In this document: one piece after another, positions 3,417-21,317 of the stretch | Numbering within the stretch: position 1 is the first letter of the stretch | Layout: each line of letters starts with the position of its first letter | Source of the DNA: Candidatus Helarchaeota archaeon | GTDB taxonomy: Archaea > Asgardarchaeota > Lokiarchaeia > Helarchaeales > RDOG01 | Reading direction: 5' to 3' | Assembly: GCA_029838215.1 (NCBI GenBank) | Contig: JALGVI010000036.1 | Location: 1-34,679 of the forward strand | DNA: 34,679 bases | The notes under the pieces: generated by a model | Databases searched by the model: none | What the model saw: only the letters and a program-made list of their open reading frames with translations | What the model was told of the DNA's origin: nothing | Translations under genes and position numbers: made by a program

Positions 3417-4103
3417 TTTTTTGGCTCTCCGGGTTCGCAGGTAATCAATAACAAAGATTAAAGCCACGAAAATGATGCCAAAAACGGGTAACGAAATGAG
3501 AAATCCACGAATCGCCACGACAAAATCGTAGGAAATACTCGCCTCGAAAATGCTATTGTCAGTGAAAGAAATGCGACCTTCCAAACTAACGCCACCAAGG
3601 AACAGGTTGATGGAATATTCAGCAGGAATATACGTGCTTAGAACGTCAGTATAAATATAATAGTAACCTCCGCCAATTGGAGTCATGTTAAATTCTTGTA
3701 CCTGACTTCCTGCTAATTCCAAAGTGGCTTCCTTTATTCCATCGGGATCAATTACTTGAACCAAAATTCCTAATCGTTCGAAGCTATCAAATGGATAAAA
3801 ATAGGTCTGCATGAGTGAAATTAAGAAATCTGATGATAAGCCCACTCCGGATGTTCGAAAAAGCGGATAAAAAAGACTTGGAAGAAAATAATCATAATTT
3901 ACATCCAACATCGGTCCAATAGCAAGAATGCCGAAAGTCGGGTAAGAAGAAGGTGAGAAAGCAGTAAGTGCGTGCGAAGATGCAATTGCAAACGGGTGGG
4001 AACCAAGATATTGCGGGGATTCGGGTTGGACAATTTTTATAAAATATTCTCCTGCAGGAAGGATAAACATCAAAGTTATTGGGCGTGCCATCTCCGTAAA
4101 CAC
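3390..4103 (-). CDS. C-terminal part of the S8 protease in the shifted frame (beta domain plus membrane anchor)
   Basis: The genuine continuation of the protease enters this frame near 4061, so the apparent ATG at 4103 is probably not a start. The segment begins ILPAGEYFIKIVQP, a pre-peptidase C-terminal-like strand, and continues through a beta-rich extracellular region. It ends in a hydrophobic helix (LPVFGIIFVALIFVIDYL) and a short basic tail (RTRRAKKLG). The restored protein would be type I membrane anchored, with the protease outside the cell and a cytoplasmic basic stop-transfer tail. Its last 27 bases overlap the HemK-like gene on the other strand. Confidence 0.75.
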   Translation of the reverse strand: MFTEMARPITLMFILPAGEYFIKIVQPESPQYLGSHPFAIASSHALTAFSPSSYPTFGILAIGPMLDVNYDYFLPSLFYPLFRTSGVGLSSDFLISLMQTYFYPFDSFERLGILVQVIDPDGIKEATLELAGSQVQEFNMTPIGGGYYYIYTDVLSTYIPAEYSINLFLGGVSLEGRISFTDNSIFEASISYDFVVAIRGFLISLPVFGIIFVALIFVIDYLRTRRAKKLGYIKPLK

Positions 4104-5709
4104 CGTATAACGATCGTGAATAATAAAGCACGTGTCTATACCACGTGAAGGTCAAGTTGAAATCCTGTTGGGATGATAAAGTAAAACGATAATAGAGGGG
4201 TCGAGAATAAATCACGTTTTCAGATCCCAAAGTGCCAACCGTGATGGCTCCATTATCAAGAAAAGTGTTTAAATGCGCCATGTCGAGATATCCGTAACCA
4301 TACGTTCCATCGGGTCCTGCGGTCCCTCTGTCTTCAGCCGTGTGTATGAGAGCTGCTTTTGCAATGAGTGGATAATAATCGTGAGAAATTTGAGGTTGTT
4401 CCTCTTCCAAATATTGAAACAAGCAAGCCGCTGCACCTGAAACGTGTGGTGTAGCCATTGACGTGCCGCTTAACTCGCGAAATGAAACATTATTGTCGTG
4501 ACGAATGGACCTAATGTTCTGCCCGGGAGCAACCAGATCAGGTTTGATTCTACCATCATAAGTCGGTCCCGTGGAACTACTACTAGCAATGACATCAGTA
4601 CTTCTAATAATATCAACCCCGTTGTCAATGTTTCCAATGCAGAGACAGTTAAACGAATCACCCGGGATGTTGATCTTGTAAGAACCCTCGTTACCTGCAG
4701 CTGATACCCATAAAACATCATAGACATGCGTAAGTGCATCTATGAAAATGGTGAGGGCATTCTGTCCATTATTAATGAGTGAAGTCTGGTCTGGAACTGC
4801 CCCTCCACTAAACGTAATGATATCTGCTTTTTCTTTGGCATTTGTAACCGCCCATTCAGCCCCGATCATTAAATCTGCAGCAATTCCATTTCCAGAACTA
4901 TCCAAGACTTTTACATTTAAGAGTGAAACATTTGGAGCCACCCCAGTATAAAGAGCATTACGACTGGCGACGATCCCTGCCACGTGTGAGCCGTGCTTGT
5001 GATCATCATAAATGTAACCTCCTTGCACGTTGTACCGATCAATCACGCAACCTTGGAGGGCTTGATGATCTTCATTTATGCCCGTATCGCAGATTGCCAC
5101 GACAATATTAGAGCCGTTATATGAAGAGTTCCATGGAGAATAGGGTAAATGTTGGGTTATTGACGGCACGCTGGTATCAAGCCTCGCTTCAATGGGAAAG
5201 TTATATTCAACGCGTGCAATCCCGGGAAGATTGGCAATTGCATTGATGTTTCTTAGGTTAACGCTCCCCGTTAGCATGTTTGAAACGAAGATTTGACGAA
5301 TGCCTTCAACGCCAAGCTTTTTCAATTCTTTCATTAATTTTAATTGACCGGGACGAACTTTTTCTTCAATGAGTTGGCGAATCTGTGAGTATACCTGTTT
5401 AGATTGCTTTGGATGTCCTTGTTTCAGCATGTCCCCGATGAATCTAGACGGTTGGTAATCCAACGTGATTATGATGGAAACAGAAGTATCTTCGGGCAAT
5501 GCTTGTATCATTTCTTGAAGTTGGGGACCAATCTTTTCGTCAAATCGGATATATAAATCGGTTTCAGGGGTATTTCCGTTATTTGAAATGGGAATAACAT
5601 TAATTCGATTTGGAAAAGACATGTTAGGAATCAAGACTAGATAAAAAAGGGATAGGCTTCCAAAAATGATAAAGATTAGAATAAAACAAGTGGTTTTCTT
5701 TCGGAACAT
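3892..5709 (-). CDS. Secreted subtilisin-like serine protease (S8), N-terminal and catalytic part, frame broken downstream
   Basis: The ATG at 5709 begins a hydrophobic signal/anchor segment (about residues 8-28). An inhibitor_I9-like propeptide follows (about 75-175), then an S8 domain with Asp208 (ICDTGIN), His239 (HKHGSHVAG), oxyanion Asn340 (SAAGNEG) and Ser417 (SGTSMATPHVSG). All catalytic residues are present. After about residue 549 (NNFDVY) the frame runs into an implausible, Cys-rich tail ending at 3892. The neighbouring frame carries the natural continuation LPAGEYFIKIVQP. Removing one base in 4059-4062 restores a protein of about 770 residues. This could be a sequencing or assembly error, or a real frameshift. 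It is preceded by a strong TATA box and stands alone on this strand. Confidence 0.9.
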   Translation of the reverse strand: MFRKKTTCFILIFIIFGSLSLFYLVLIPNMSFPNRINVIPISNNGNTPETDLYIRFDEKIGPQLQEMIQALPEDTSVSIIITLDYQPSRFIGDMLKQGHPKQSKQVYSQIRQLIEEKVRPGQLKLMKELKKLGVEGIRQIFVSNMLTGSVNLRNINAIANLPGIARVEYNFPIEARLDTSVPSITQHLPYSPWNSSYNGSNIVVAICDTGINEDHQALQGCVIDRYNVQGGYIYDDHKHGSHVAGIVASRNALYTGVAPNVSLLNVKVLDSSGNGIAADLMIGAEWAVTNAKEKADIITFSGGAVPDQTSLINNGQNALTIFIDALTHVYDVLWVSAAGNEGSYKINIPGDSFNCLCIGNIDNGVDIIRSTDVIASSSSTGPTYDGRIKPDLVAPGQNIRSIRHDNNVSFRELSGTSMATPHVSGAAACLFQYLEEEQPQISHDYYPLIAKAALIHTAEDRGTAGPDGTYGYGYLDMAHLNTFLDNGAITVGTLGSENVIYSRPLYYRFTLSSQQDFNLTFTWYRHVLYYSRSLYGVYGDGTPNNFDVYPSCRRIFYKNCPTRIPAISWFPPVCNCIFARTYCFLTFFLPDFRHSCYWTDVGCKL

Positions 5710-8512: not shown

Positions 8513-10177
8513 TCATACTGGAGTCTTTGCCGTTGCCGGAACCGCCATGGCTTTAGCTTTTTTAGTTGCTTGTTTAGGGCGTCTGTATATTTTTGGTCGT
8601 CTTTGAAGCTTGATTATGGAACCAATTGTCGGGAATGCCAGGGCAATGGGTAGTAATAAAATGGTGATCATTTCAGCCGTTTGAAATTCAATACTGTAAA
8701 TAATATCGGGTGGAGGAATCAGGAATAAGAATTGAAAAATATTTGACACGTTCATAATTAGAAAGGTGAGCAAAACCAGCGTGACGATGCGATAGAGAGC
8801 ATTCTTTCCAGCAGTGATTAGAAGTTTTTTCTTTGAAGGCAATGCCGCGCTTGCAGTAAGAGTTGCTCTCGCGTTTTTATCTTGACGATAACGTTCTTCA
8901 ACATAACTATTTAATTGTTGTACTTTCGAGACGTCCAAAATTTCTTCTTCTTCTTCCTCTTTTAATAGAGATAGGATTTTTTGTTCTCTTTTCGTTATTG
9001 ACTTTTTGCGAATATCGGATACTTTTTCCGATTCTTTTCGTTTTTCAATCATTTCCCGCATGTAATCAAATGCTTCGGAGGAAAAGAATTTTCTAATGGT
9101 TACGGACTGTGTTTGCATCATTCCCTCTTCTTGAATTTCTTCTTCAGATTCTTCCAAGAGCTTTTTCTTTTCTTCTTTTAATTTTGCAAGGCGTTCAAGT
9201 TGTTTCATTTGTTCTTCCAAACGTTGACCGCGATATGCAGAAGGTAAGAATACTTCATAAATATAGGAAGTCTGACATGCAACTTCCAAATAGATCAAGG
9301 AAAAAAATACCGCCATGAATACCGGGTTAAAGAAAAACGTGAAAAGTGGATTTCCATAGAAGAGAGTTTTATTATTCACTAAAGGGTTAACCAATTGCGT
9401 AAAACTCTCTAAATCAGAACCAATGGCATTTAGATTTCCTCCTTTCAAAAAGGAATTGAAGAACACCATTGCTATTATAATAATAAAGATATATTGAATC
9501 CATTTCAGTTTTCTTTTAGAAATGGCAGTTCTCAGCTTGAAGAGATATATGAATGCAACGAGAGCAAATGGCAGGGAAAACAGCAGGTTAAATACGGATG
9601 AAAATATATTTAGAAAAGGGACAGACTCATAAAAAGTAATGTATGTTATTAAAGTGCCAATCGTGGGCGTGAAAATGGCTATGAACATGGGAAGAATCAT
9701 GAAAATGAACGAATAAAATGCCCATTTCGTGTCACAATTGATCAAGAAATACGCCATTGAGAGTGTTGCACCCAGAACAAAAAGCGGAAATAATGAGAAA
9801 TAAAATGCCACGAAGAAATCATCGGGAGGAACACCTATCGGAACGAAACCGAATGGAGGAATTAAAAGGTTTGGAGGCGTTAGAAACACGTATGGATTAT
9901 AATAGAAAACGGCATAAACACCCCAGTAGATGAGAATAAATGCATTAGTGAATATCTGTCCTAGTAGCGTTAATAAGCCAACAAACAATGTAAGTAGAGG
10001 ATTTTGAACGTTTGTCGTGCCTGCTCCTAGGAGGACAGGATTCCAAATTCCGACATTGAAGTTCTGAAAGACAGCTATCAATGAGATCGTGAACAGGACA
10101 GCGGTAATAATTCGAAATACATTTATTGTTAATTCGCTGCGAAACCGTCTTCCAACTTCTTCTATTAGGAGTGCCAC
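8513..10177 (-). CDS. Multi-pass membrane protein of the MoxR/DUF58 cluster, unknown function
   Basis: This 554-residue protein starts at GTG only 2 bases after the DUF58 stop and is the last gene of the six-gene cluster. I recognise no named family. By eye it has eight or more hydrophobic segments in the first about 310 residues. A charged, probably coiled-coil cytoplasmic stretch follows (about 325-445, rich in Lys/Glu, such as QMKQLERLAKLKEEKKKLL). Two further hydrophobic helices (about 462-520) and a basic, Ala/Lys-rich tail complete it. The polar middle and tail suggest a membrane platform with a sizeable cytoplasmic domain, perhaps an assembly partner or target of the MoxR-DUF58 machinery. 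That is inference from position. Confidence 0.7.
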   Translation of the reverse strand: MALLIEEVGRRFRSELTINVFRIITAVLFTISLIAVFQNFNVGIWNPVLLGAGTTNVQNPLLTLFVGLLTLLGQIFTNAFILIYWGVYAVFYYNPYVFLTPPNLLIPPFGFVPIGVPPDDFFVAFYFSLFPLFVLGATLSMAYFLINCDTKWAFYSFIFMILPMFIAIFTPTIGTLITYITFYESVPFLNIFSSVFNLLFSLPFALVAFIYLFKLRTAISKRKLKWIQYIFIIIIAMVFFNSFLKGGNLNAIGSDLESFTQLVNPLVNNKTLFYGNPLFTFFFNPVFMAVFFSLIYLEVACQTSYIYEVFLPSAYRGQRLEEQMKQLERLAKLKEEKKKLLEESEEEIQEEGMMQTQSVTIRKFFSSEAFDYMREMIEKRKESEKVSDIRKKSITKREQKILSLLKEEEEEEILDVSKVQQLNSYVEERYRQDKNARATLTASAALPSKKKLLITAGKNALYRIVTLVLLTFLIMNVSNIFQFLFLIPPPDIIYSIEFQTAEMITILLLPIALAFPTIGSIIKLQRRPKIYRRPKQATKKAKAMAVPATAKTPV

Positions 10178-10179
10178 GT

Positions 10180-11514
10180 TTACACCAAACCAGTTCCTTT
10201 TTTCTTAGCTTTTTGATATTCAGTAATGACAATGGGGAAAAAATCCGCAGGACCTACATCTATTATGTCTACGCCGAATTGTCCCGCTTTTTTCTTGAGT
10301 TCTAATCTTTTCTCCCATAACTCTTCACTCACGGCAGTCGTTAGAGCCATGTCGATGTTAGAAAGCTCTTCAGGGCGACCTTCAAACCAGGGTCCAAATG
10401 GACTTATAATGATGCATTGATGCTTGTAAGATCTTGCAATTTTTAATGCTTCAACGAATTCATCTTTCACGTTTTCACAATCCGTGATGATGAAGAAAAA
10501 ACTTGCTTTTGGAATACGTTTCACGGCATAATCTATTGCTTCCATCAAAACTTTTTTACCTTTAGCTTGAACCCGTGAAAGATTTTCCATGATCGTATAA
10601 ACCTGACGATTTCCTGCGGATGGTTCAACAAAATAGTGCGTTTTATTCGAAAAAAGCAACAACCCGACTTGATCCCGTCTTTCCAAGGCAAGATTTGCTA
10701 ACAGAATTGTTGCACGGATGGAATATTCCAGCTTGTCTTCTTCGAATTTCCCACGTGTCATTGTATTTGAAACATCTAATAGTATCAGGACTCGAATGTT
10801 CTTTTCAGATTCGAATTCACGCGTCATTAATTTACGAGTTTTAGCCGTGGCTTTCCAGTCTATTCGGCGAAATTCATCTCCAGAGGTATATTGGCGGATT
10901 CCGTAGAATTCTGCACCCAATCCTTTTTGCTTATGGGAATGAATACCATAAATGATACCCTGTCGTCGTTTTCCTGCAAATGCTTGCATTCTTCTTATGT
11001 CTTGGAAATCAGGATATACTAGAGTTTCGGTAATCACGTCAATTCCAGTATCTTCAACATGAAAACCCAATCGATCACGAACAATTAATTTTGCAGGTCC
11101 TAGGTTATATACGCCTCGGAGTCTTGCCTGAAGGATATAAGAAAACGTGATTTCGCCTCCAGCATCGATGCGCGTTCCCATCCAGTTTTCGCCTAACACT
11201 AAGGTAAAAGCCTGTGGAGGATAAATGTCATACACTTCAATGTAATCGTAATCTCTCGTCCCCACGTTTTTGATTTTTATCGTGATATGAATGAATTCAT
11301 TCACGAATACTTTATCTTTATCATACGTGCGTTCCAAGATGAGATCTTTAGAAACATCGACAGAAGCTTCGAAGAATGGGATGCTGATTACCGAGGCCAA
11401 AATAAAAATTACTCCCAAAAGGATCAAGAAGTAATTACCGGGAAAGTTCCAAAATCCAATGAAAAGGAAGAGAATTCCTCCAAGGATGAAATATCGGGCT
11501 CGTTGGGTGATCAT
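10180..11514 (-). CDS. DUF58 domain protein (vWA-like), MoxR partner
   Basis: A 444-residue protein. Two hydrophobic helices near the N-terminus (about 5-50) anchor it, followed by a beta-rich extracytoplasmic-type segment. The DUF58 signature follows: GAEFYGIRQYTSGDEFR, IDWKATAKT, REFESEKN, then LLDVSNTM near residue 246, whose DxSxT order fits a vWA MIDAS metal site. DUF58 proteins are typically encoded beside MoxR ATPases and are thought to be adaptors or substrates of that chaperone-like AAA+. It starts at ATG 11514, 15 bases after the MoxR stop, with a purine-rich GAGAGAT just upstream. Confidence 0.93.
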   Translation of the reverse strand: MITQRARYFILGGILFLFIGFWNFPGNYFLILLGVIFILASVISIPFFEASVDVSKDLILERTYDKDKVFVNEFIHITIKIKNVGTRDYDYIEVYDIYPPQAFTLVLGENWMGTRIDAGGEITFSYILQARLRGVYNLGPAKLIVRDRLGFHVEDTGIDVITETLVYPDFQDIRRMQAFAGKRRQGIIYGIHSHKQKGLGAEFYGIRQYTSGDEFRRIDWKATAKTRKLMTREFESEKNIRVLILLDVSNTMTRGKFEEDKLEYSIRATILLANLALERRDQVGLLLFSNKTHYFVEPSAGNRQVYTIMENLSRVQAKGKKVLMEAIDYAVKRIPKASFFFIITDCENVKDEFVEALKIARSYKHQCIIISPFGPWFEGRPEELSNIDMALTTAVSEELWEKRLELKKKAGQFGVDIIDVGPADFFPIVITEYQKAKKKGTGLV

Positions 11515-11529
11515 GAATATCTCTCGCGA

Positions 11530-12477
11530 TTAAACAGGTACATCAATATCTTCTAGTATTCTTTGAATGACCTTATCCACGGACAGTCCGCCTAATTCTG
11601 CTTCTGGTTTTAGAATGAGACGATGAAACATCGTATATCGGGATAGAACTTTGACATCATCAGGTATCACGTAATCCCGACCAAGGATTGCAGCTCGAGC
11701 CTTTGAGCTATTCAGTAAAGCCAGGGACACACGTGGTCCACCACCAATGAGGATTTGAGGGTCATTTCGAGTTTTAAATACAAGATTTCGTATGAATTTC
11801 ATGATGTCTTTATCCACGTGGACACCCTTCACAGCCTGTTGCATTGCTACGAGTTGTTCAGGGTCGGTAACTGGAGAGACTTGGGCTTGTATTTTCTTGT
11901 GCTTGCGTTTGATCAATTCTACTTCTTCCTCTTCAGATGGATAGTCCACGATTAGCTTGAATAAAAAGCGATCCGTTTGGGCTTCGGGTAATGGATATGT
12001 TCCTTCCATCTCCAGTGGGTTTTGCGTGGCTAACACCATGAATGGACTTTGAAGCGGGTATGTCGTGCCTTCGATCGTGACCTGTTTTTCAGCCATGCAT
12101 TCCAATAACGCAGATTGTGTTTTTGGTGGTGCACGATTAATTTCATCCGCCAAGATCATGTTGGCGAATATCGGTCCTTGTCTTAATTCGAATTCATTGG
12201 TTTTTGGATTCAATATGTTTGTCCCGATGATATCTGCGGGAAGCAAATCCGGCGTGAATTGAATTCTGTGAAAGCTGCAACCGATTGCAGTAGCAAACGC
12301 ATTCGCCATGAAAGTCTTGGCGACACCGGGCACGCCCTCCAATAACACGTGTTCATTGCATAAGAGAGCAATGAATATGTTTTGAAGGACTTCACCTTTT
12401 CCAACCACTACTTTTCGAACTTCCGTGAGTACTTTCTGTGCGAGATCTCGCACGTCTTCTACTTTATATTCGCTCAT
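11530..12477 (-). CDS. MoxR-family AAA+ ATPase
   Basis: A 315-residue cytoplasmic AAA+ ATPase of the MoxR group. Walker A is GVPGVAKT (48-55), Walker B ends in DEINRAPPKTQ (from 111), then sensor-1 ATQNPLEMEGTYPLPEAQ with the DRF arginine-finger region, and a C-terminal helical lid with GGPRVSLALL. MoxR proteins act with vWA/DUF58 partners in maturation of other proteins or complexes. The neighbours on both sides belong to that association. The start ATG at 12477 is preceded by GGTGA about 7 bases upstream, a plausible ribosome-binding site, and the gap to the preceding gene is 22 bases. Confidence 0.96.
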   Translation of the reverse strand: MSEYKVEDVRDLAQKVLTEVRKVVVGKGEVLQNIFIALLCNEHVLLEGVPGVAKTFMANAFATAIGCSFHRIQFTPDLLPADIIGTNILNPKTNEFELRQGPIFANMILADEINRAPPKTQSALLECMAEKQVTIEGTTYPLQSPFMVLATQNPLEMEGTYPLPEAQTDRFLFKLIVDYPSEEEEVELIKRKHKKIQAQVSPVTDPEQLVAMQQAVKGVHVDKDIMKFIRNLVFKTRNDPQILIGGGPRVSLALLNSSKARAAILGRDYVIPDDVKVLSRYTMFHRLILKPEAELGGLSVDKVIQRILEDIDVPV

Positions 12478-12499: not shown

Positions 12500-13915
12500 T
12501 CATGATAGAATTGAATCAGAGATCCATCTCATTTCATAGAAATAATGCATGAAATCATATGGATCCTTAATTTTAAGTTGATTTTTTTCGATTAATTCAA
12601 GCCGCCGAAGGTTGGCTTTTATTCGATTTATGTTTATTCTTGGTTTGACTTTCAGGATTTCTTCAATTATCAAATCTTTATCAAATTCTTTAAGCTCCAG
12701 CCCCGTGATAAGACTTCGTTTCAACCTACGATACAAAAGAGCTAAAGCCTTGTTAAATTGTCTCTTTTCCTTGAACCATTTCATTCGTTCGTAATATATT
12801 GTCTTGCCTTTCTTCTTGTAGAGCTCGGATCTTTTCTGAATTTTTGGCATTTCTGCTTTCGGAATGAATCTCTTGATTGTCCTGAAAATGAAGTAAGGAG
12901 TTATGACGGACAAGACACCTATGGAAGAACAATATACAAACATCAAAATGAAACCGAAAAATGGCGGGACCAATTTGGCTTGATGACCTTCATCAAACAA
13001 TATTTGAGTTGTATCGGCGTCGGCGAGGAAATTGACAATATTCCGCACGAATTGTTTATTATCAACGCCGCTATCGCCATAATTTTCATTTACAAAAATA
13101 TCAGGGTCACTTAAAATGATTATATTGCCGCTACGACCCAAAGCAGCAATAACATGGCTTTCTCCATTTTCATTTGTATCTTGGGCTCCGTTATAATTAG
13201 AATCCAGCCAGCTCATGCTACTGCTTGCCGCAATTGGAATCCACGTGGTAAATCCGAATCCAAAAAATGAGAAACCACCGAATAGATTTACTTGGATTGC
13301 CGCCGCCTGACTCACTTTCACGGTCGTGACCCCAGCTCCCAATACGGGATCAAAATTTTGAATGAGAACATTAGTTGGATTACCATCGTTAAATCCTTCA
13401 TCATAGAGAATTCCGGGTTTTAATTCAGCGCCCAACGGCATTGTTGCAGTACCCCAGGAAATTCCGAATAATCCAACAATTGTTTTCGTGAGATAGTCAA
13501 ACAAGAGATCGAAATCATTTAGGATGCACAGCCAATTTGTAGTGCCAAAATCACCTGCAATCACGATCTTTCCGCCATCTTCAAGAAATGAAATCAATCC
13601 ATAAATTTCAATGGGGTTATATATATGAGCAGGAGCAATTATAAAAAGAATAGACTTTTTATCAGTCTTATTTGTTACCGAGAGTGAAGAAACAAGAGTC
13701 TTGACTTCGAATTGGGGCACTCCGTTTCCATTTTGAAGATCATCACGAAATTGTGACAGTCCCTTGCTTCCCTCATTAAAAATTGAATATTGATTGTAGA
13801 TTTGACCAAAATTTGGATCAGATGCAGAGAAAAGGGATCCTAGCGAATACATCGGAGCAAATATCAGCGGCAATAGACAGATCCCAAATAGAACCATTAA
13901 AGCAACGGATCCCAT
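12500..13915 (-). CDS. DUF4350-like membrane protein of the MoxR cluster
   Basis: A 471-residue protein with a hydrophobic N-terminal helix (about 3-28). An external domain has FLEDGGKIVIAGDFGTTN (about 110-127) and GRSGNIIILSDPDIF (about 260-274), both reminiscent of DUF4350/GldG-type domains. A second membrane helix (about 318-345) and a basic helical cytoplasmic tail complete it. A D-x-N-x-N-G loop (about 238-252) may bind calcium. ATG 13915 is the only standard start after an in-frame stop, but the open frame continues 24 codons further upstream with plausible residues (see findings). DUF4350 is a regular neighbour of MoxR/DUF58 genes. The family call is by motif shape and context. Confidence 0.7.
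   Translation of the reverse strand: MGSVALMVLFGICLLPLIFAPMYSLGSLFSASDPNFGQIYNQYSIFNEGSKGLSQFRDDLQNGNGVPQFEVKTLVSSLSVTNKTDKKSILFIIAPAHIYNPIEIYGLISFLEDGGKIVIAGDFGTTNWLCILNDFDLLFDYLTKTIVGLFGISWGTATMPLGAELKPGILYDEGFNDGNPTNVLIQNFDPVLGAGVTTVKVSQAAAIQVNLFGGFSFFGFGFTTWIPIAASSSMSWLDSNYNGAQDTNENGESHVIAALGRSGNIIILSDPDIFVNENYGDSGVDNKQFVRNIVNFLADADTTQILFDEGHQAKLVPPFFGFILMFVYCSSIGVLSVITPYFIFRTIKRFIPKAEMPKIQKRSELYKKKGKTIYYERMKWFKEKRQFNKALALLYRRLKRSLITGLELKEFDKDLIIEEILKVKPRININRIKANLRRLELIEKNQLKIKDPYDFMHYFYEMRWISDSILS
13160..13204 (-). other. Possible Ca-binding D-x-N-x-N-G loop inside the DUF4350-like protein
   Basis: Residues about 238-252 read DSNYNGAQDTNENGE, a spacing of acidic and Asn residues like EF-hand or thrombospondin type 3 loops. 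It sits in the predicted external domain. No second copy was seen, so binding is only a possibility. Confidence 0.3.
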
Positions 13916-14002: not shown

Positions 14003-14374
14003 TTATGCTGTAGCGCGCTGACGTCGGCTCCTAGGTTTGGAGCGCATTTCTTCTTCAAGTCGCTTCATCATCTTGTGAGCATCCATGAAGACACTCTGAG
14101 TTCCTTCACGAAGACCAAAACGAACTTCTTCGTAAAGCGTAGTAAATGGATAAACCAGGGATGGATCAAGACCATCCTTCACGAGATCCATCACGAATTC
14201 GCGATAGGTTTTGTGTCTGGGTCGATCTTTTCCAAAATGGTCTTCTGCAAGGTTTATGAATGTTCCATAGCAGAGACAGATTGCTTCACGAATGCGGTTT
14301 CCCTCTTTTAATAGGTCCAAGTTTTTTTCAACTTGTTTCATGTTCACCAATACTCGTCCTCTTGCTCTAGGCAT
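14003..14374 (-). CDS. Small DUF4129-like cytoplasmic protein
   Basis: A 123-residue, all-helical-looking soluble protein. Its core aligns by eye with the cytoplasmic tail of the upstream giant protein: LLKEGNRIREAI vs LLDGGRINEAI, HKTYREFVMDLV vs GKTNREFIEMI, and LYEEVRFG vs LYEEARFS, in the same order and spacing. The R-x-REF helix and the LYEEARF-type helix are marks of DUF4129, common in transglutaminase/MoxR clusters. It is very basic at the C-terminus (RSKPRSRRQR). The start ATG at 14374 has AGGATGAT 6 bases upstream. It could be a free partner that competes with or bridges to the membrane-bound domain (inference). Confidence 0.75.
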   Translation of the reverse strand: MPRARGRVLVNMKQVEKNLDLLKEGNRIREAICLCYGTFINLAEDHFGKDRPRHKTYREFVMDLVKDGLDPSLVYPFTTLYEEVRFGLREGTQSVFMDAHKMMKRLEEEMRSKPRSRRQRATA

Positions 14375-14450: not shown

Positions 14451-17400
14451 TTATTCTGAAATCATGATTTCTTCTCCCGCTACCTGTTCTTGGGCAACCG
14501 GGCTGGCAATTGATTCTTCTTCTTTTTCTTTCAACACGTCTTTATGAGTTAAATTAACGATGGTTTTTGCCAATCGATTATAGACTTTTTCTGCTTTCTC
14601 ATAATCAGCTCGTGTCATTCCATGCTTCGAAAATCGAGCTTCTTCATAGAGATCCAGCAGTAGAAAAGCATCTTTATCATCAATTTTCTCCACCCTGCGG
14701 GTGATCATTTCGATAAACTCTCGATTTGTCTTACCCGTCTTTCGGGTCAATTTCAAATATCCCCTACTGATGTATGCCAGATTGGAAAAGAGAAAGATTA
14801 TTGCTTCATTTATCCGTCCTCCATCAAGAAGGGTTTGAATCTTTTGAGCATTTCCAACTACATCAATAATTTTCGCTTTTATTTCTTGCTGACGTCGATA
14901 TAACTTCAAAGCGATGAACGCACCTACGGCAGCCACTACAGCTACTACTAAAACAAGTAGTAAAGTAATAACAATGGGCGTGATGTCAAATGGTCTTACA
15001 CCCAAATTAACGAAACCGCCTTCTTTTGAAGTTCCATGATAAGTTACCGTGACATTTATCCAATCAGGAATCTGACTTGATAATACTTGCGTGACTGAAA
15101 ATGCACCATTTGTTCCCGTAGTTAATGGAGTGGCAATTGTTGTATCAACGCCACTGAAGTTGGCAATTATTGTCAAATATTTACCAGGAATACCTATCGC
15201 TGGTGCGGCAGCATCAACCAATTGCCCCGAAAACACGGCTACATCCGTGAAATAGTAACTCGGGTTATTACTCGAAATTGAGAGTTGAGGCGTTGTATAG
15301 AAATAAACCTTGAACGAAAATGTTATGTTGTTAATGTATGGATTTGCATCATTAAAACGAATGACGGCATCAAACTCGGTTCCAAGGGAAGCATTGCTTG
15401 CAGTTGGTCTATACGTAAATTGAAAATAGCCGCCTCCATAGGTTACATTAGTAACTGTAAGATTATCATCAATCAGGAGTTCCATGCTTTTTCCATTCCA
15501 GTGATCATATCCACCGTTTTCCGTGAGTCGACCCGTGATGTTAATATATTCCCAACCAACATGAAAGAAATAAGTTTGAGATACAAGACTTTGATAATTG
15601 GATAAGTCATCATTGTAAATTTGTAACTGAGTATAAGTTGACGTGTAATTAACTTCTAGGCTTGCGGGAGTCGAATTTTTTGAATTTAAAGCAACCAATT
15701 CTATAATTACTTGCCATTCACCCATTTCCGCAGGATTTGAAGGAAATGTAAAAGCACCTTGAGCATTTGTCTGAACGGAACCAGCGAAAGATTCAGAATT
15801 ATTGCCAAGGGTCAGATTTTTTATGTATAAATTCACGGTTCGATATTGAATATTGTATATTCCCGATAGGACTACTGACCCGGAGATCACGATATTCTCC
15901 TTGTAGGAGGCTTGATATGGGGGATTTTGACCATTGATCAAGACATTAATTCCAATGTTTGCGATATCAAATACCAATATTGAAGCATCTTGATTTGTTG
16001 CCAAGATGAAATCGGTGCCGTTATATTTCAGATTAACGTTATTCGGACCTATGGTCGCTCCTGCAGGAATATTTGCCTCTATATAGAAGAATCCATTACC
16101 ATCAGTCAAGGCACTTCCTATAGTAATTCCGCCAACGTGGGCAGATATATTATATCCAGAGGAATTGTAATATAATGAATCTCCGCCAAGAATGGAGAGA
16201 TATCCTGTTATATTAACGTTCTCACCTTGCTGAACATTTAAATATGAACTCGAATTTACCAATAAGTTATTAAAAGTGGTCGTAGCATTAACTTGGAGGT
16301 TAAAATTATACGCGTGAGAAGAATTCTTTGCCACGCCTGCCCTAAGCACGGCAGTCACGTTAAATTGACCGAGGTAATTCGTCAGCTCGACGCCCGTGAA
16401 GGATTTGCTGTATGTTCCCGACACGTCAGTTAGTAGAGAATCAAGCAGGAATTCAGAACCATTGCCAAACGTCACGTTTGTAATGTATATATCCACGTAT
16501 CTAGCATAAATGGGATCACTTCCTGAAAGCACGTTTCCCTGAATCGTTATGCCGTTTTCGCGATATTGAGCATTGTATCGAGTGCTTCCGCCAATAGAAA
16601 GAGAAATAGTAAGATTATTCACGTTATTATCGAACACAAAAAACGTGATAATGTCAGATGTAGATGCAATGGAAGTTGTTCCATTGAACAATACAGTTAT
16701 TGTATTAGTTCCTAGGGAAAATAGGGGCGTTACCGTCGTGGTGATTTGAAAAAGACCGTTAGCATCGGTAAATGCGGCACCGAGAGTAATCCCATTGAGA
16801 TGGATTGATATATTTTGATTTGAGAAAGGAGCCGTCCCAGCAGTATTTTTCAAGTACCCCGTAACAACCACGGGTTCACCCATTTGTGCGTAAAAATTCG
16901 TGCTTCCATTCACCAATAATGTAAAGAATTTTGATGAAGTAGTAACATTAAATTCGGTCACGTTATAGGAAGTATTTGAAAATGCACCCATGAACCGGGC
17001 CGTTGCGTTGAAATATCCCAATTTATCGGAAGTGGGTGGATCAAAATCAGTATATGGAGTATAGGTCGTTTGATAAAACCCATTTACTTGGGTGATTACA
17101 GTCCTATTCAGCGTGGAATTCAGGTAAATTTGAACAGTTCGACCGACAAGACCGACACCCCCCGAATCCAATAGAGATCCCGATAACGTGACTTGTTCGT
17201 TCCAATCAAGTGTACTCCTTGATGCGTTAATATTCAATACCGTTCCATTGAAAACATAAATGTCCACTGTAGTTGAGCTATAATTGTAATAGTTTGTTCC
17301 GTAAAACGTGAGCAGTATTTGTTGGTCGCCAAGCAAGGTTGCATTTTCAGGCATGTCAAACGTGATCGTGAAGTCACCATTTGCATCAGTGGTACCACCA

Positions 17401-20400
17401 CCTAATTCCTGCCCTAAAATGGAAGCGTTGACTATCATGTTGGATGATGCATGGCCAGTATTATCCAAGAGCGAACCCGTGATTTCAAGAGTTTCATTTA
17501 ATTGGCAATACATCTTGCTCGTCGTGCCATTCACGAGTGTATTTGCAATGGAAGTAGTGTAATTCAATTCTATTGTTTTATTATACCAGCGAACCACTTG
17601 GATAGGTTGATCACTTGTACTATTAAATATCGACACGTTATACATGTCCGCAATGTCAATATCACTTCTAGGGACGATAAACGTGTGAGTGAACTCGCCG
17701 TTAGCATTTGTTGTATTTTGAGTCGACGAGATCACGGTATCATTAAAAATCACTTCGTAGTTAAAATCAGCAAACCCACCTTGTGGATGAAGGGTTGCAT
17801 TCAATAACGTGACGTTTCCCGATATTGTAATCGATGTGGTTCCAATCGTCGCAACGGAAGGCGTGACGGAGAGAATGTGGATTTCTACAAGATGTGCTAC
17901 GGCAGGATCATGAGCGGATACACACGATCCTCGGCTACTATTTCCACGATAAACGACATACACGTCAACATTACCAACATCATTTAATGGTACTTCATGA
18001 ACGAAACTAAAATTTCCATTGGCATCAGTTTTGACGGAACTCAAATTGAAATCACCAGAGCTGTTTGACCAATGAAGGTCAACATATTCTCCAACGATAG
18101 GTGTCACGCCATCATCTTCGACGAGAGTACCGTTCACGGTTGTATTATGTCCCGCAACGATTGGGAATCCTGGAATATCGCTATAAACGGTCTTATTTTC
18201 AATTGTCGAGCCAACCCAAAGGTTGATTGTATAGTTACCACTCACGTTTTCTGTTCCAGAAATGTAGAGATAATTGGGTAAAATATAATTGTAAGGAACA
18301 GGCCATTCAATTGAAAATGTCCCGTAAAATGCAGCCGTAAGATTGAAATATGCTCCTGCGGGATGAGTAGAAGACACGGAAAAATTCCCTTGGAATCCGG
18401 TTGGTGTTGTATATTGGTTTCCAGATTCAAAGGTACAATTTTGATTAGGACTTGAGATATTAATGTAATATCCATGAGGATAAAGTGCTTGATGCGTGAC
18501 GGGATCTTCGAATAATCCTGATGCCGTAAAATTCTCTCCACGAATTAGGGGGTCTGGAACCACGTTTGATAACGTAATATTGGTTTCACCAGTTAATCCA
18601 ATCGTCGTGGCATTCATGACTGCTTTAAAAGAACCCAAAATGGGATGAGGACCGACAACATCCGAAGTCGTGAAAGTCGTATTTGCTTGCACGTAACCGG
18701 AATCATTAACGGGTTCATCAACAATGATAAAAGTATCATTCACGAGATCATAAAAGCTGATGTTAATTTTTTGATTCAAGAGATTTGTCTTGAGAATTTG
18801 ATTATCACGCCATAGGGAAGCCGTGAATTCGATCCCCGTCCCGCGTGATACAACACTTGAAGAATTAAAGGTAACATTGACATCATAATGCATTGTTCTG
18901 ACTTTTTCATCAGGGATTCGAGCGGGATACCACGTGCCTCCACTACCTTGGGTTTCATTATACATGTATTTTGGAAGGGGAACGGGATCAAATTGTACCC
19001 AGTCACCAAAGCCCAAATCATCTTCAATCCAGACTTCAGCCCAGAAATGCTCGTTACTAATCCATTTATAATTGGAAGGATCTAATTGAATTCCACCATA
19101 TACAAGTCGAGATGATATGCCCAGATCTCTCAAGAACATGACAAATGCAGTTGAGATTTGTGCAGAGGTTCCATATCCATTTTGGAATAGTGCATCAAGA
19201 TCATATCCCGTTCCGTTTAATTCAGGCGTGAAGGAAAAGTTAGTCTTGAAGTATTCCATTACTGCCAAGACGGTATCATTTACCGTGGTAAGTGCAGGAT
19301 GATTGCGAAATTGGTCAATTTCATCACGTATATATTGCGGAATGTAAGATACAGACGTGTAATTAATGCCCGAACCATCATTTGGTGATCCCGGAGAGCC
19401 GATCGCATTCATGTTGCCTGCCCATGCATCGAAATCACCATTATAACTTCCATTGTATGGCACGCTATAGGTTACTTGAAGCCATGTTGGATCGGTTAAA
19501 CTTACAGAACCTCCTATTGACACGTTCCAGTATATAGCACCATAATTCACGTCATAGAGTAGATCGCTTTGATTTATTGTTCCTGAGCCGGACATTTTAG
19601 TAACATTAAAAGAGCCGTCAATCATGTTTGCAATTGGAGATAAGACTGGAAGCGGATATAACGCCGTCCCGTTGGTAATGGCAACGAGATCAATAGTAAT
19701 GTTATATACTTGTGCAGCGGTAACATTTGTAACGTTGGCATAAGTAACGTTGGATTTTGTCCACGTGCTGGAATCAAATTCATCGTAAGAATTCATCTTC
19801 CAGTAGGAACGGTTCGTGGACGTTGCGGGTTCTGCTTCAAAGTGCGTGCCGCTGGGACCGAAATCACCAAAGCCCCACACACCTTCGCCACCTCCAAATC
19901 CAGCACCTGCAACGGTTCCTTCACCATCGCCAAATGCTCCACCTCCGTATTCGCCCGATCCACCCGGATTACCCGGAGGACTCGCATCTAAATCACCATC
20001 GCCTCCATTAAGATCACCCCAAGTATTGTTATCGCTCGTTGGTGGAGTGAATCCCGTAGAACTGGAAGGATCGAATGGCCACCACATTCCATAGGAGGAA
20101 TTTATCGGGAGATATACTTCAGTCCAAGCATGTGCATTCATGAATTTAACAACTTCATAAGTTCCACTTCGGTCTCCCACGGAGAAGCCCGATATATAGC
20201 GTGTTGGGATACCCATTAATCGCAATAATACCGCATGAGCCGCTACGAAATCGTAGAAAATTCCCCATCCCCTATTATACATGAAATCATATACAGCATC
20301 AACACCAGCAGGGACTTCATATACGGAAATTGTACTGCTATATGGGTCTGAAGGGTCAATACCCAGATATTGAAATGGATCATAACTGAATGATTGAGTC

Positions 20401-21317
20401 AAGTTATCAATAACAAATTGAGATTTTTCATATACAGAGGTTCCAGAAGCAGGATCGGCATCTAATTGAGCCGCATAAGTCTGGACGTATGACCAACCAA
20501 TAAGAGGAGTTGTTGGGGTCTGAGTATACTGTGAAATAATACTACTAGGAATTAATGAAGCTGAAGAATTTTGAGCAGAAAGAGGCAGATCCACATCCTC
20601 GAAGATAATTTCGTAATTTGCGAGTAGCTCATGTCCTGTTAAGGGACCCGCTGTTGCAGTAATGGCACCGTATCCATCTTCCTGCAAGATTTCAGTATAA
20701 TCAGGAGCGGGATTAACATATCCTCCACTACTAAAGGAGATCGTGATGTCGTCTATTCCTAAATTACCTGTAGGCTCGTCATGAAGTGGAACAGTCTGTT
20801 CAATCACGTCGGCACTATCGATGTTGCTTTTATTAAAGATAAGTGTTTGAGCATAAGAAGTGCCTGTAGGCGTTGCCAACGTATCATAAGATAAAGAAGA
20901 ATCACTTATCGCCCACGAATTTGTGCCATCATAAACATCCATGATGTATTGACGCCAATAGTGTTCAGGCACGCCTTTAGTGGCATTAAAATATTCTGTA
21001 TCAAATAAATCTAAAAGATCATCAAAATTATCAACATTATCAAGAAGATCTAGAAGAAGATCATCAAAATTTTGTAAAAAATCAAGAAGTCGATTGGGAT
21101 CAATTTCCGGCACGATAGAGCCATTAGGTAAATCTTCCAATCGAACATCTCCAATATTCATATTCAAACTAAGAAACAAGGGAATAGGTAAAAGCGAAAA
21201 AATCATTATTCCAGAAAAACATAAAGAAAATAAAAGAGCAAAAGTAAGATATGGATGACGAATATACCGCTTGCTCGGTGTTTTGCCACCCGAAGAAGCA
21301 CCATCTCTCAAAGACAT
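14451..21317 (-). CDS. Giant surface protein: two transglutaminase-like domains (catalytic Cys lost), Ig-like repeats, membrane anchor, DUF4129 tail
   Basis: A 2288-residue protein. Order: basic cytoplasmic start and membrane helix (about 22-50); first transglutaminase-like domain with LLRLMGIPTRYISGF, His396 (AHAWTEVY) and Asp416 (PFDPSS); Gly/Asp-rich linker (about 430-500); second domain with FLRDLGISSRLVYGG, His757 (EHFWAEVW) and Asp777 (QFDPVP); about 1250 residues of Ig-like/CNA-B-like beta repeats (DANGxF pattern, many N-x-S/T sequons); a membrane helix (about 2112-2138); and a cytoplasmic DUF4129-like helical domain. At the catalytic Cys positions stand Phe354 and Ser718, so both domains should be inactive as transglutaminases or peptidases. 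The protein likely stands on the cell surface with its tail facing the MoxR/DUF58 partners. It is first in the operon, with a TATA element and AGGATGAT ribosome site upstream. Confidence 0.9.
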   Translation of the reverse strand: MSLRDGASSGGKTPSKRYIRHPYLTFALLFSLCFSGIMIFSLLPIPLFLSLNMNIGDVRLEDLPNGSIVPEIDPNRLLDFLQNFDDLLLDLLDNVDNFDDLLDLFDTEYFNATKGVPEHYWRQYIMDVYDGTNSWAISDSSLSYDTLATPTGTSYAQTLIFNKSNIDSADVIEQTVPLHDEPTGNLGIDDITISFSSGGYVNPAPDYTEILQEDGYGAITATAGPLTGHELLANYEIIFEDVDLPLSAQNSSASLIPSSIISQYTQTPTTPLIGWSYVQTYAAQLDADPASGTSVYEKSQFVIDNLTQSFSYDPFQYLGIDPSDPYSSTISVYEVPAGVDAVYDFMYNRGWGIFYDFVAAHAVLLRLMGIPTRYISGFSVGDRSGTYEVVKFMNAHAWTEVYLPINSSYGMWWPFDPSSSTGFTPPTSDNNTWGDLNGGDGDLDASPPGNPGGSGEYGGGAFGDGEGTVAGAGFGGGEGVWGFGDFGPSGTHFEAEPATSTNRSYWKMNSYDEFDSSTWTKSNVTYANVTNVTAAQVYNITIDLVAITNGTALYPLPVLSPIANMIDGSFNVTKMSGSGTINQSDLLYDVNYGAIYWNVSIGGSVSLTDPTWLQVTYSVPYNGSYNGDFDAWAGNMNAIGSPGSPNDGSGINYTSVSYIPQYIRDEIDQFRNHPALTTVNDTVLAVMEYFKTNFSFTPELNGTGYDLDALFQNGYGTSAQISTAFVMFLRDLGISSRLVYGGIQLDPSNYKWISNEHFWAEVWIEDDLGFGDWVQFDPVPLPKYMYNETQGSGGTWYPARIPDEKVRTMHYDVNVTFNSSSVVSRGTGIEFTASLWRDNQILKTNLLNQKINISFYDLVNDTFIIVDEPVNDSGYVQANTTFTTSDVVGPHPILGSFKAVMNATTIGLTGETNITLSNVVPDPLIRGENFTASGLFEDPVTHQALYPHGYYINISSPNQNCTFESGNQYTTPTGFQGNFSVSSTHPAGAYFNLTAAFYGTFSIEWPVPYNYILPNYLYISGTENVSGNYTINLWVGSTIENKTVYSDIPGFPIVAGHNTTVNGTLVEDDGVTPIVGEYVDLHWSNSSGDFNLSSVKTDANGNFSFVHEVPLNDVGNVDVYVVYRGNSSRGSCVSAHDPAVAHLVEIHILSVTPSVATIGTTSITISGNVTLLNATLHPQGGFADFNYEVIFNDTVISSTQNTTNANGEFTHTFIVPRSDIDIADMYNVSIFNSTSDQPIQVVRWYNKTIELNYTTSIANTLVNGTTSKMYCQLNETLEITGSLLDNTGHASSNMIVNASILGQELGGGTTDANGDFTITFDMPENATLLGDQQILLTFYGTNYYNYSSTTVDIYVFNGTVLNINASRSTLDWNEQVTLSGSLLDSGGVGLVGRTVQIYLNSTLNRTVITQVNGFYQTTYTPYTDFDPPTSDKLGYFNATARFMGAFSNTSYNVTEFNVTTSSKFFTLLVNGSTNFYAQMGEPVVVTGYLKNTAGTAPFSNQNISIHLNGITLGAAFTDANGLFQITTTVTPLFSLGTNTITVLFNGTTSIASTSDIITFFVFDNNVNNLTISLSIGGSTRYNAQYRENGITIQGNVLSGSDPIYARYVDIYITNVTFGNGSEFLLDSLLTDVSGTYSKSFTGVELTNYLGQFNVTAVLRAGVAKNSSHAYNFNLQVNATTTFNNLLVNSSSYLNVQQGENVNITGYLSILGGDSLYYNSSGYNISAHVGGITIGSALTDGNGFFYIEANIPAGATIGPNNVNLKYNGTDFILATNQDASILVFDIANIGINVLINGQNPPYQASYKENIVISGSVVLSGIYNIQYRTVNLYIKNLTLGNNSESFAGSVQTNAQGAFTFPSNPAEMGEWQVIIELVALNSKNSTPASLEVNYTSTYTQLQIYNDDLSNYQSLVSQTYFFHVGWEYINITGRLTENGGYDHWNGKSMELLIDDNLTVTNVTYGGGYFQFTYRPTASNASLGTEFDAVIRFNDANPYINNITFSFKVYFYTTPQLSISSNNPSYYFTDVAVFSGQLVDAAAPAIGIPGKYLTIIANFSGVDTTIATPLTTGTNGAFSVTQVLSSQIPDWINVTVTYHGTSKEGGFVNLGVRPFDITPIVITLLLVLVVAVVAAVGAFIALKLYRRQQEIKAKIIDVVGNAQKIQTLLDGGRINEAIIFLFSNLAYISRGYLKLTRKTGKTNREFIEMITRRVEKIDDKDAFLLLDLYEEARFSKHGMTRADYEKAEKVYNRLAKTIVNLTHKDVLKEKEEESIASPVAQEQVAGEEIMISE
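15640..16930 (-). repeat. Duplicated two-domain (A-B-A-B) Ig-like module inside the giant protein
   Basis: Two alternating domain types recur with a period of about 218 residues. Type A carries QMGEPVVVTGYL / QQGENVNITGYL, then ITLGAAFTDANGLF / ITIGSALTDGNGFF and an ending FFVFD / ILVFD. Type B carries YRENGITIQGNV / YKENIVISGSVV and a long YVDIYI / TVNLYI strand. Copies start near 16905 and 16250. This indicates a tandem duplication of a two-domain unit followed by divergence. Confidence 0.6.

Follow-up and report, generated by a model that had tools for sequence, protein, structure and literature searches.

Transglutaminase-like domains without a catalytic cysteine in a MoxR-operon protein of Asgard archaea

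The nearest known counterpart of the protein described here is TgpA of Pseudomonas aeruginosa (PA2873), which has a catalytic triad and displays transglutaminase activity in vitro (PMC3507681). In archaea, a cluster of arCOG01314 (DUF4350), MoxR, and vWA genes has been predicted to encode a system for secretion or membrane remodelling (PMC5898192); neither transglutaminase nor DUF4129 turned up when the text of that paper was searched. The transglutaminase fold can also persist without activity, as in the dead transglutaminase-like eukaryotic proteins EPB42, FBXO21, and Rad4/XPC, where it is used for scaffolding or binding, and papain-like families based on Ser include menin, APC5867, DUF2145, DUF2272, and DUF3750 (PMC10318531). 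The MoxR-DUF58-DUF4350-DUF4129 cluster type, the dead eukaryotic folds, and the Ser-based families are therefore already known. What is new is that a single conserved operon shows the loss of the catalytic Cys throughout a phylum, and that members of this operon with an intact triad provide an internal comparison. Our search of the open-access literature turned up no earlier account of such a loss in Asgard archaea.

The window, the whole stretch of DNA analysed, comprises 34,679 nucleotides from a Candidatus Helarchaeota genome whose assembly is 94.3% complete with 6.2% contamination. The genome encodes an actin (E 3.7e-132), which, taken with its gene content, indicates an Asgard archaeon. 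An intact open reading frame on its minus strand (14451-21317) encodes a predicted membrane-anchored surface protein of 2288 amino acids. By hydropathy scan, the protein begins with a hydrophobic segment that could be a signal anchor or a transmembrane helix (residues 22-53, 21159-21254). Two units follow, delimited with alignment A2, each combining a beta-sandwich with a transglutaminase-core domain: unit 1 (residues 105-430, 20028-21005), in which the profile places the domain 1 core at residues 292-425, and unit 2 (residues 490-789, 18951-19850), with a Gly-rich linker read in the sequence between them (residues 435-492, 19842-20015). A similar linker lies before the single unit of a relative (L035/G002). 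Beyond unit 2, weak Pfam matches (CarboxypepD_reg, DUF1416, Big_6, MG2, and Big_1) mark a stretch of Ig-like or carboxypeptidase-regulatory-like repeats (residues about 840-2100, 15018-18800), after which come a C-terminal transmembrane segment detected by hydropathy (residues 2105-2141, 14895-15005) and a DUF4129-like, presumably cytosolic tail (residues 2190-2244, 14586-14750) whose Pfam score of 20.4 bits falls below the 24.8 cut-off (E 5.6e-4). Because there is a hydrophobic segment at both ends, and because the protein contains 91 N-x-S/T sequons and the long Ig-like stretch, most of it probably lies outside the cell with the tail inside, the transmembrane topology being read from hydropathy.

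The whole protein scores 95.7 bits with Pfam Transglut_core (PF01841), for which the cut-off is 23; the match covers two stretches (20067-20303 and 18984-19286), and each domain alone exceeds the cut-off in a whole-genome search. AlphaFold2 models built on 21-row alignments, which left out relatives from the genome searches, for residues 270-440 (domain 1, mb791aae109f5) and 650-805 (domain 2, mfffe8f9ac155) have mean pLDDT values of 78.8 and 79.3 and pTM values of 0.76 and 0.75, respectively, and both adopt a transglutaminase/papain-like fold with a core helix and beta strands. For both models, Foldseek ranks the periplasmic TgpA domain first among PDB structures (6G49; E 8.3e-7 for domain 1 and 7.6e-5 for domain 2); Rad4 is a weak fold match of the domain 2 model. 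TgpA (6G49, 6G4H) is likewise the top PDB sequence match for both domains, and it too is a membrane protein with a beta domain before its extracytoplasmic transglutaminase domain. In contrast to TgpA, which has the triad and several N-terminal transmembrane helices, the window protein lacks the Cys, has two units and a long Ig-like stalk, and begins with a single hydrophobic region instead of a multi-helix TgpA_N domain (the Pfam TgpA_N match, at residues 493-554, scores 24.2 bits, under the cut-off of 30).

A preliminary description, made from the sequence alone, had claimed that both domains lost the catalytic Cys while keeping His and Asp, and our analysis confirms this. The triad positions, checked on the sequence, are Phe354 (20256-20258), His396 (20130-20132), and Asp416 (20070-20072) in domain 1, and Ser718 (codon TCT, 19164-19166), His757 (19047-19049), and Asp777 (18987-18989) in domain 2. 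When aligned with 19 bacterial and haloarchaeal domains, the two window domains are the sole exceptions to a nucleophile column that is Cys in all 19, whereas the His and Asp columns are invariant throughout. The models agree with the alignment: Phe354 (model residue 85) and Ser718 (model residue 69) are each the first residue of the core helix (85-98 and 69-82, respectively), at the helix N-terminus where an active transglutaminase or cysteine protease has its Cys, with the His in the central strand (126-135 in domain 1 and 107-116 in domain 2) and the Asp directly after the next one (141-146 and 122-127). No other Cys can take the place of the nucleophile, since the entire protein has only four, at residues 33, 961, 1132, and 1271, leaving residues 34-960 Cys-free. 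Close relatives do not keep the Cys either, as the three nearest with a match carry Ser, Ser, and Asn.

The loss extends well beyond this protein. With a survey profile built from 18 domains, 192 of the phylum's 228 genomes yielded a match, and from these we read 121 distinct domains of 113 genomes in 19 families, orthologous or related. The Cys is absent in 112 of these domains and kept in nine, which belong to family f17, the first domain of f10, and one sequence (G081) of f6. In place of the Cys we found Pro (44), Ser (22), Trp (17), Gly (8), Phe (7), Tyr (7), Ala (6), and Asn (1). As to whether the replacement is fixed, most families hold to one residue (Pro in f8, Gly in f15, Ala in f26, and Ser in f24 except for one Ala), but many different residues occur across the phylum. 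Decay has gone further than Cys loss in two families, because other catalytic positions are also gone: all 28 f8 rows have Pro and lack both His and Asp or Glu, and f4 rows have Trp, Phe, or Tyr at the nucleophile position and Tyr for His. The only Cys-His-Asp sequence in f6, G081 (L048), groups inside f17 and comes from a genome flagged as 9% contaminated, and contamination or gene transfer is its likely source. Tandem domains were also seen in f10 (L043 7807-12537, L292 5967-10742), where in the four genomes read domain 1 is Cys-His-Asp and domain 2 is Pro-His-Asp, apart from one genome with Tyr for His in domain 1; by these residues the pair is apparently one active and one dead domain.

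Transglutaminase-core domains in several control sets behave differently. Among the phylum's other transglutaminase-core proteins, found with an unbiased Pfam profile, all 47 that were read keep the Cys. With the survey profile, it is kept in 28 of the 29 bacterial and haloarchaeal domains and in 33 of 36 domains from bacteria and the phylum of a Halobacteriales locus, a set whose loci are partly shared with the 29. Fisher tests of the Cys contrast between survey and controls give p values of ~6e-33 and ~3e-22, which are illustrative only because related sequences are non-independent. The missing Cys does not stem from misalignment, since in 28/29 outgroup domains the survey profile aligns a Cys at that position. 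Search bias was tested with the unbiased profile, which recovers the phylum's other proteins with their Cys in every one read. A single-sequence search of the genome contigs with P0002 found no relative, and a contig search with alignment A2 matched only bacteria and haloarchaea, which served as controls.

Sporadic loss does occur outside Asgard archaea. In the phylum of a Halobacteriales genome, the nucleophile is replaced by Gly, Ser, and Asp in L245, L266, and L272; the Ser and Asp cases belong to open frames 2033 and 3607 amino acids long. A gammaproteobacterial protein of 1171 amino acids (L169 3313-6825) has Val there with His and Asp kept, and adjoins a Cys-bearing homologue.

The gene also has a conserved genomic setting. 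In the window it heads an operon on the minus strand, followed by genes for a small DUF4129 protein (123 amino acids, 14003-14374; 28.2 bits against the Pfam cut-off of 24.8, adjoining the gene in relatives), a DUF4350 protein (471 amino acids, 12500-13915), a MoxR-type AAA+ ATPase (315 amino acids, 11530-12477; AAA_3, 1e-65), and a DUF58/von Willebrand A protein (444 amino acids, 10180-11514), the last three assigned by both Pfam and synteny. At the DUF58 end lies a gene for a 554-amino-acid protein with hydrophobic stretches and no Pfam match (8513-10177), which occupies the same place in relatives; it is conserved across the phylum and looks like an undescribed subunit. Adjacent MoxR and DUF58 genes are the mark of TgpA-type operons, and an operon that joins genes for Ig-like surface proteins to those for DUF4350, a MoxR ATPase, and vWA/DUF58 recalls the arCOG01314 system, to which the pseudo-transglutaminase subunit is an addition made here. 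The operon order is kept around the orthologue in families f1, f2, f3, f8, f9, f10, f12, f15, f17, and f18, with the operon cut by a contig end in some of these relatives and the small DUF4129 gene not always present. In f4 (G035), too, the gene is followed by the complete cluster, and parts of it are seen in f5, f6, and f21; it was not found beside the gene in f24 and f26 or in the examined pieces of f7, f25, and f28. The complete Cys-His-Asp sets of f17 and the first f10 domain sit within the same operon type.

Despite the missing nucleophile, the domain is not decaying, because pairwise dN/dS between near Cys-less relatives is about 0.02-0.38, well below 1; Gly, Arg, Trp, and Glu columns within it are 95-100% conserved. 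To follow its history we used a tree of the whole unit (330 columns) in place of a domain-only tree (118 columns) that was too poorly resolved. In it, domain 2 forms a group (support 98/96) with G001, G002, and G003, which belong to the same family or order and have Ser, Ser, and Asn at the nucleophile position; domain 1 is a long branch without firm placement. Because Ser is common to single-domain relatives of the same order, the Cys of domain 2 was probably lost before the 2288-residue protein arose. Thus, the parallel loss in two tandem domains put forward in the preliminary description stands insofar as both lack the Cys, but finds no support as a local event. A tree with all Cys-bearing rows on one side was rejected (AU p = 0.003), which implies either repeated loss of the Cys or loss followed by regain. 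Neither a duplication in this lineage giving rise to domains 1 and 2 (AU p 0.165) nor a grouping of domain 1 with f4/f6 (AU p 0.43) was rejected. A single base change can turn a Cys codon into one for Phe, Trp, Tyr, Ser, or Gly, and two are required for Pro, Ala, and Asn; these distances fit a stepwise loss, possibly via Ser. Within f1 the Ser codons differ, TCT in one sequence and AGC in the other, which hints at repeated origin of Ser or selection for it.

We consider it likely that both transglutaminase folds are pseudoenzymes that form a non-catalytic binding or scaffold part of a MoxR-driven surface complex, an enzyme fold having probably been converted to serve in binding or scaffolding. 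Absence of the Cys in 112/121 domains, set against its retention in the controls (47/47, 33/36, and 28/29), supports this reading, as do the further decay in f8 and f4, the low dN/dS and conserved columns of the Cys-less domain, the kept operon, and the TgpA-like fold of both models. The 2288-residue protein would be the Asgard version of the TgpA/transglutaminase-core member of the MoxR-DUF58-DUF4350-DUF4129 operon. Its former active-site cleft would most likely serve, with no acyl transfer, to bind a peptide, a glycoprotein, or a partner subunit. A long, glycosylated stalk of Ig-like repeats would display the domains outside the membrane, where they would catch or retain a partner at the surface. 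On the inner side, the DUF4129 tail could couple this capture to the MoxR ATPase and DUF58, which may in turn assemble or remodel a surface or secretion complex; we infer the binding role and the extracellular topology, and gene order is what points to the MoxR coupling. A binding or structural role had been suggested at the outset, and it is borne out in part, as the best-supported reading of a fold that is under purifying selection without its Cys. The eukaryotic EPB42, FBXO21, and Rad4/XPC offer a parallel in that they have a transglutaminase fold without activity, which here is predicted from sequence, though they belong to other lineages, cellular places, and partners, whereas the loss described here is phylum-wide in one operon. 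Two points run counter to a wholly non-catalytic interpretation. Members with Cys-His-Asp (f17, the first f10 domain, and G081) occur in the same gene type, and some may still be enzymes; in addition, the Ser-His-Asp of domain 2 is a chemically possible triad.

Alternatively, domain 2 may be a serine-type hydrolase or acyltransferase (Ser718-His757-Asp777) with domain 1 as its inactive regulatory partner, which we regard as unlikely. Ser718 had been proposed as a conceivable nucleophile, and domain 2, unlike domain 1 with its Phe, does resemble the Ser-based papain-like families in having Ser for Cys with the other two active-site residues kept; PMC10318531 lists such families, menin and DUF2272 among them, as possibly active. 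Ser is found in 22/121 domains of nine families, with His kept in 21/22 and Asp or Glu in 22/22, and both Ser codon sets (TCN and AGC) occur, even inside f1. However, His and Asp are equally retained where the residue is Gly (8/8) or Ala (6/6). Retention of His and Asp therefore tracks a small residue and not a nucleophile, and since some Pro lineages also keep both, intact His and Asp are no argument for residual catalysis. Ser is one of several replacements and is not fixed across the family, giving way to Ala in G145 inside the Ser clade f24 and to Asn in G003, which has lost the His as well. Thus, a nucleophilic Ser718 is conceivable but disfavoured. It is similarly doubtful that several Asgard lineages possess a MoxR-driven surface Ser-His-Asp acyltransferase or hydrolase in which domain 2 would be catalytic and domain 1 regulatory.

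It is more improbable that the domains are relics without a role of their own, so that only the Ig-like stalk, transmembrane segment, and DUF4129 tail matter. The absence of all three catalytic positions in f8 would suit such a history, as would the varying number of transglutaminase domains among relatives, but low dN/dS across the domain in many lineages, its near-invariant Gly, Arg, Trp, and Glu columns, and its presence throughout the phylum argue against it. Activity through a rearranged site, with a nucleophile from elsewhere in the domain or from a partner protein, has precedent in the active-site migrations of the papain-like superfamily (PMC10318531), yet we give it very little credence given the Cys-free residues 34-960, the position of 354 and 718 at the start of the core helix in both models, and lineage-specific replacements among which we noticed no compensating conserved residue. 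Finally, removal of the Cys by misalignment or an error in this incomplete metagenome-assembled genome can be practically dismissed, because the frame is open and independent genomes of the phylum repeat the pattern, with a conserved Gly-x-[nucleophile] motif.

The non-catalytic reading bears on how such conversions are studied. The change from enzyme to non-catalytic protein is usually described for single proteins, and here it can be traced across an archaeal phylum in a syntenic operon, where triad lineages (f17 and the first f10 domain) are comparable with Ser, Gly, Ala, Pro, and aromatic ones. The finding suggests that the putative MoxR complex can do its work without catalysis, and makes the role of the transglutaminase fold in the MoxR operon testable. 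Automatic annotation as "transglutaminase" is probably wrong for most of the phylum's proteins of this kind.

Two further observations concern the neighbourhood of MoxR-type clusters. In the window, a subtilase gene (Peptidase_S8, 3892-5709) lies on the operon's strand, near the operon and past an oppositely oriented helicase gene. In family f21, a divergent transglutaminase-core protein of ~1040 amino acids is encoded between MoxR-type clusters (G101, L221/L275 8679-11798; G108, L223/L276 8532-11645), with either Ser or Ile at the nucleophile position and Tyr for His in both cases.
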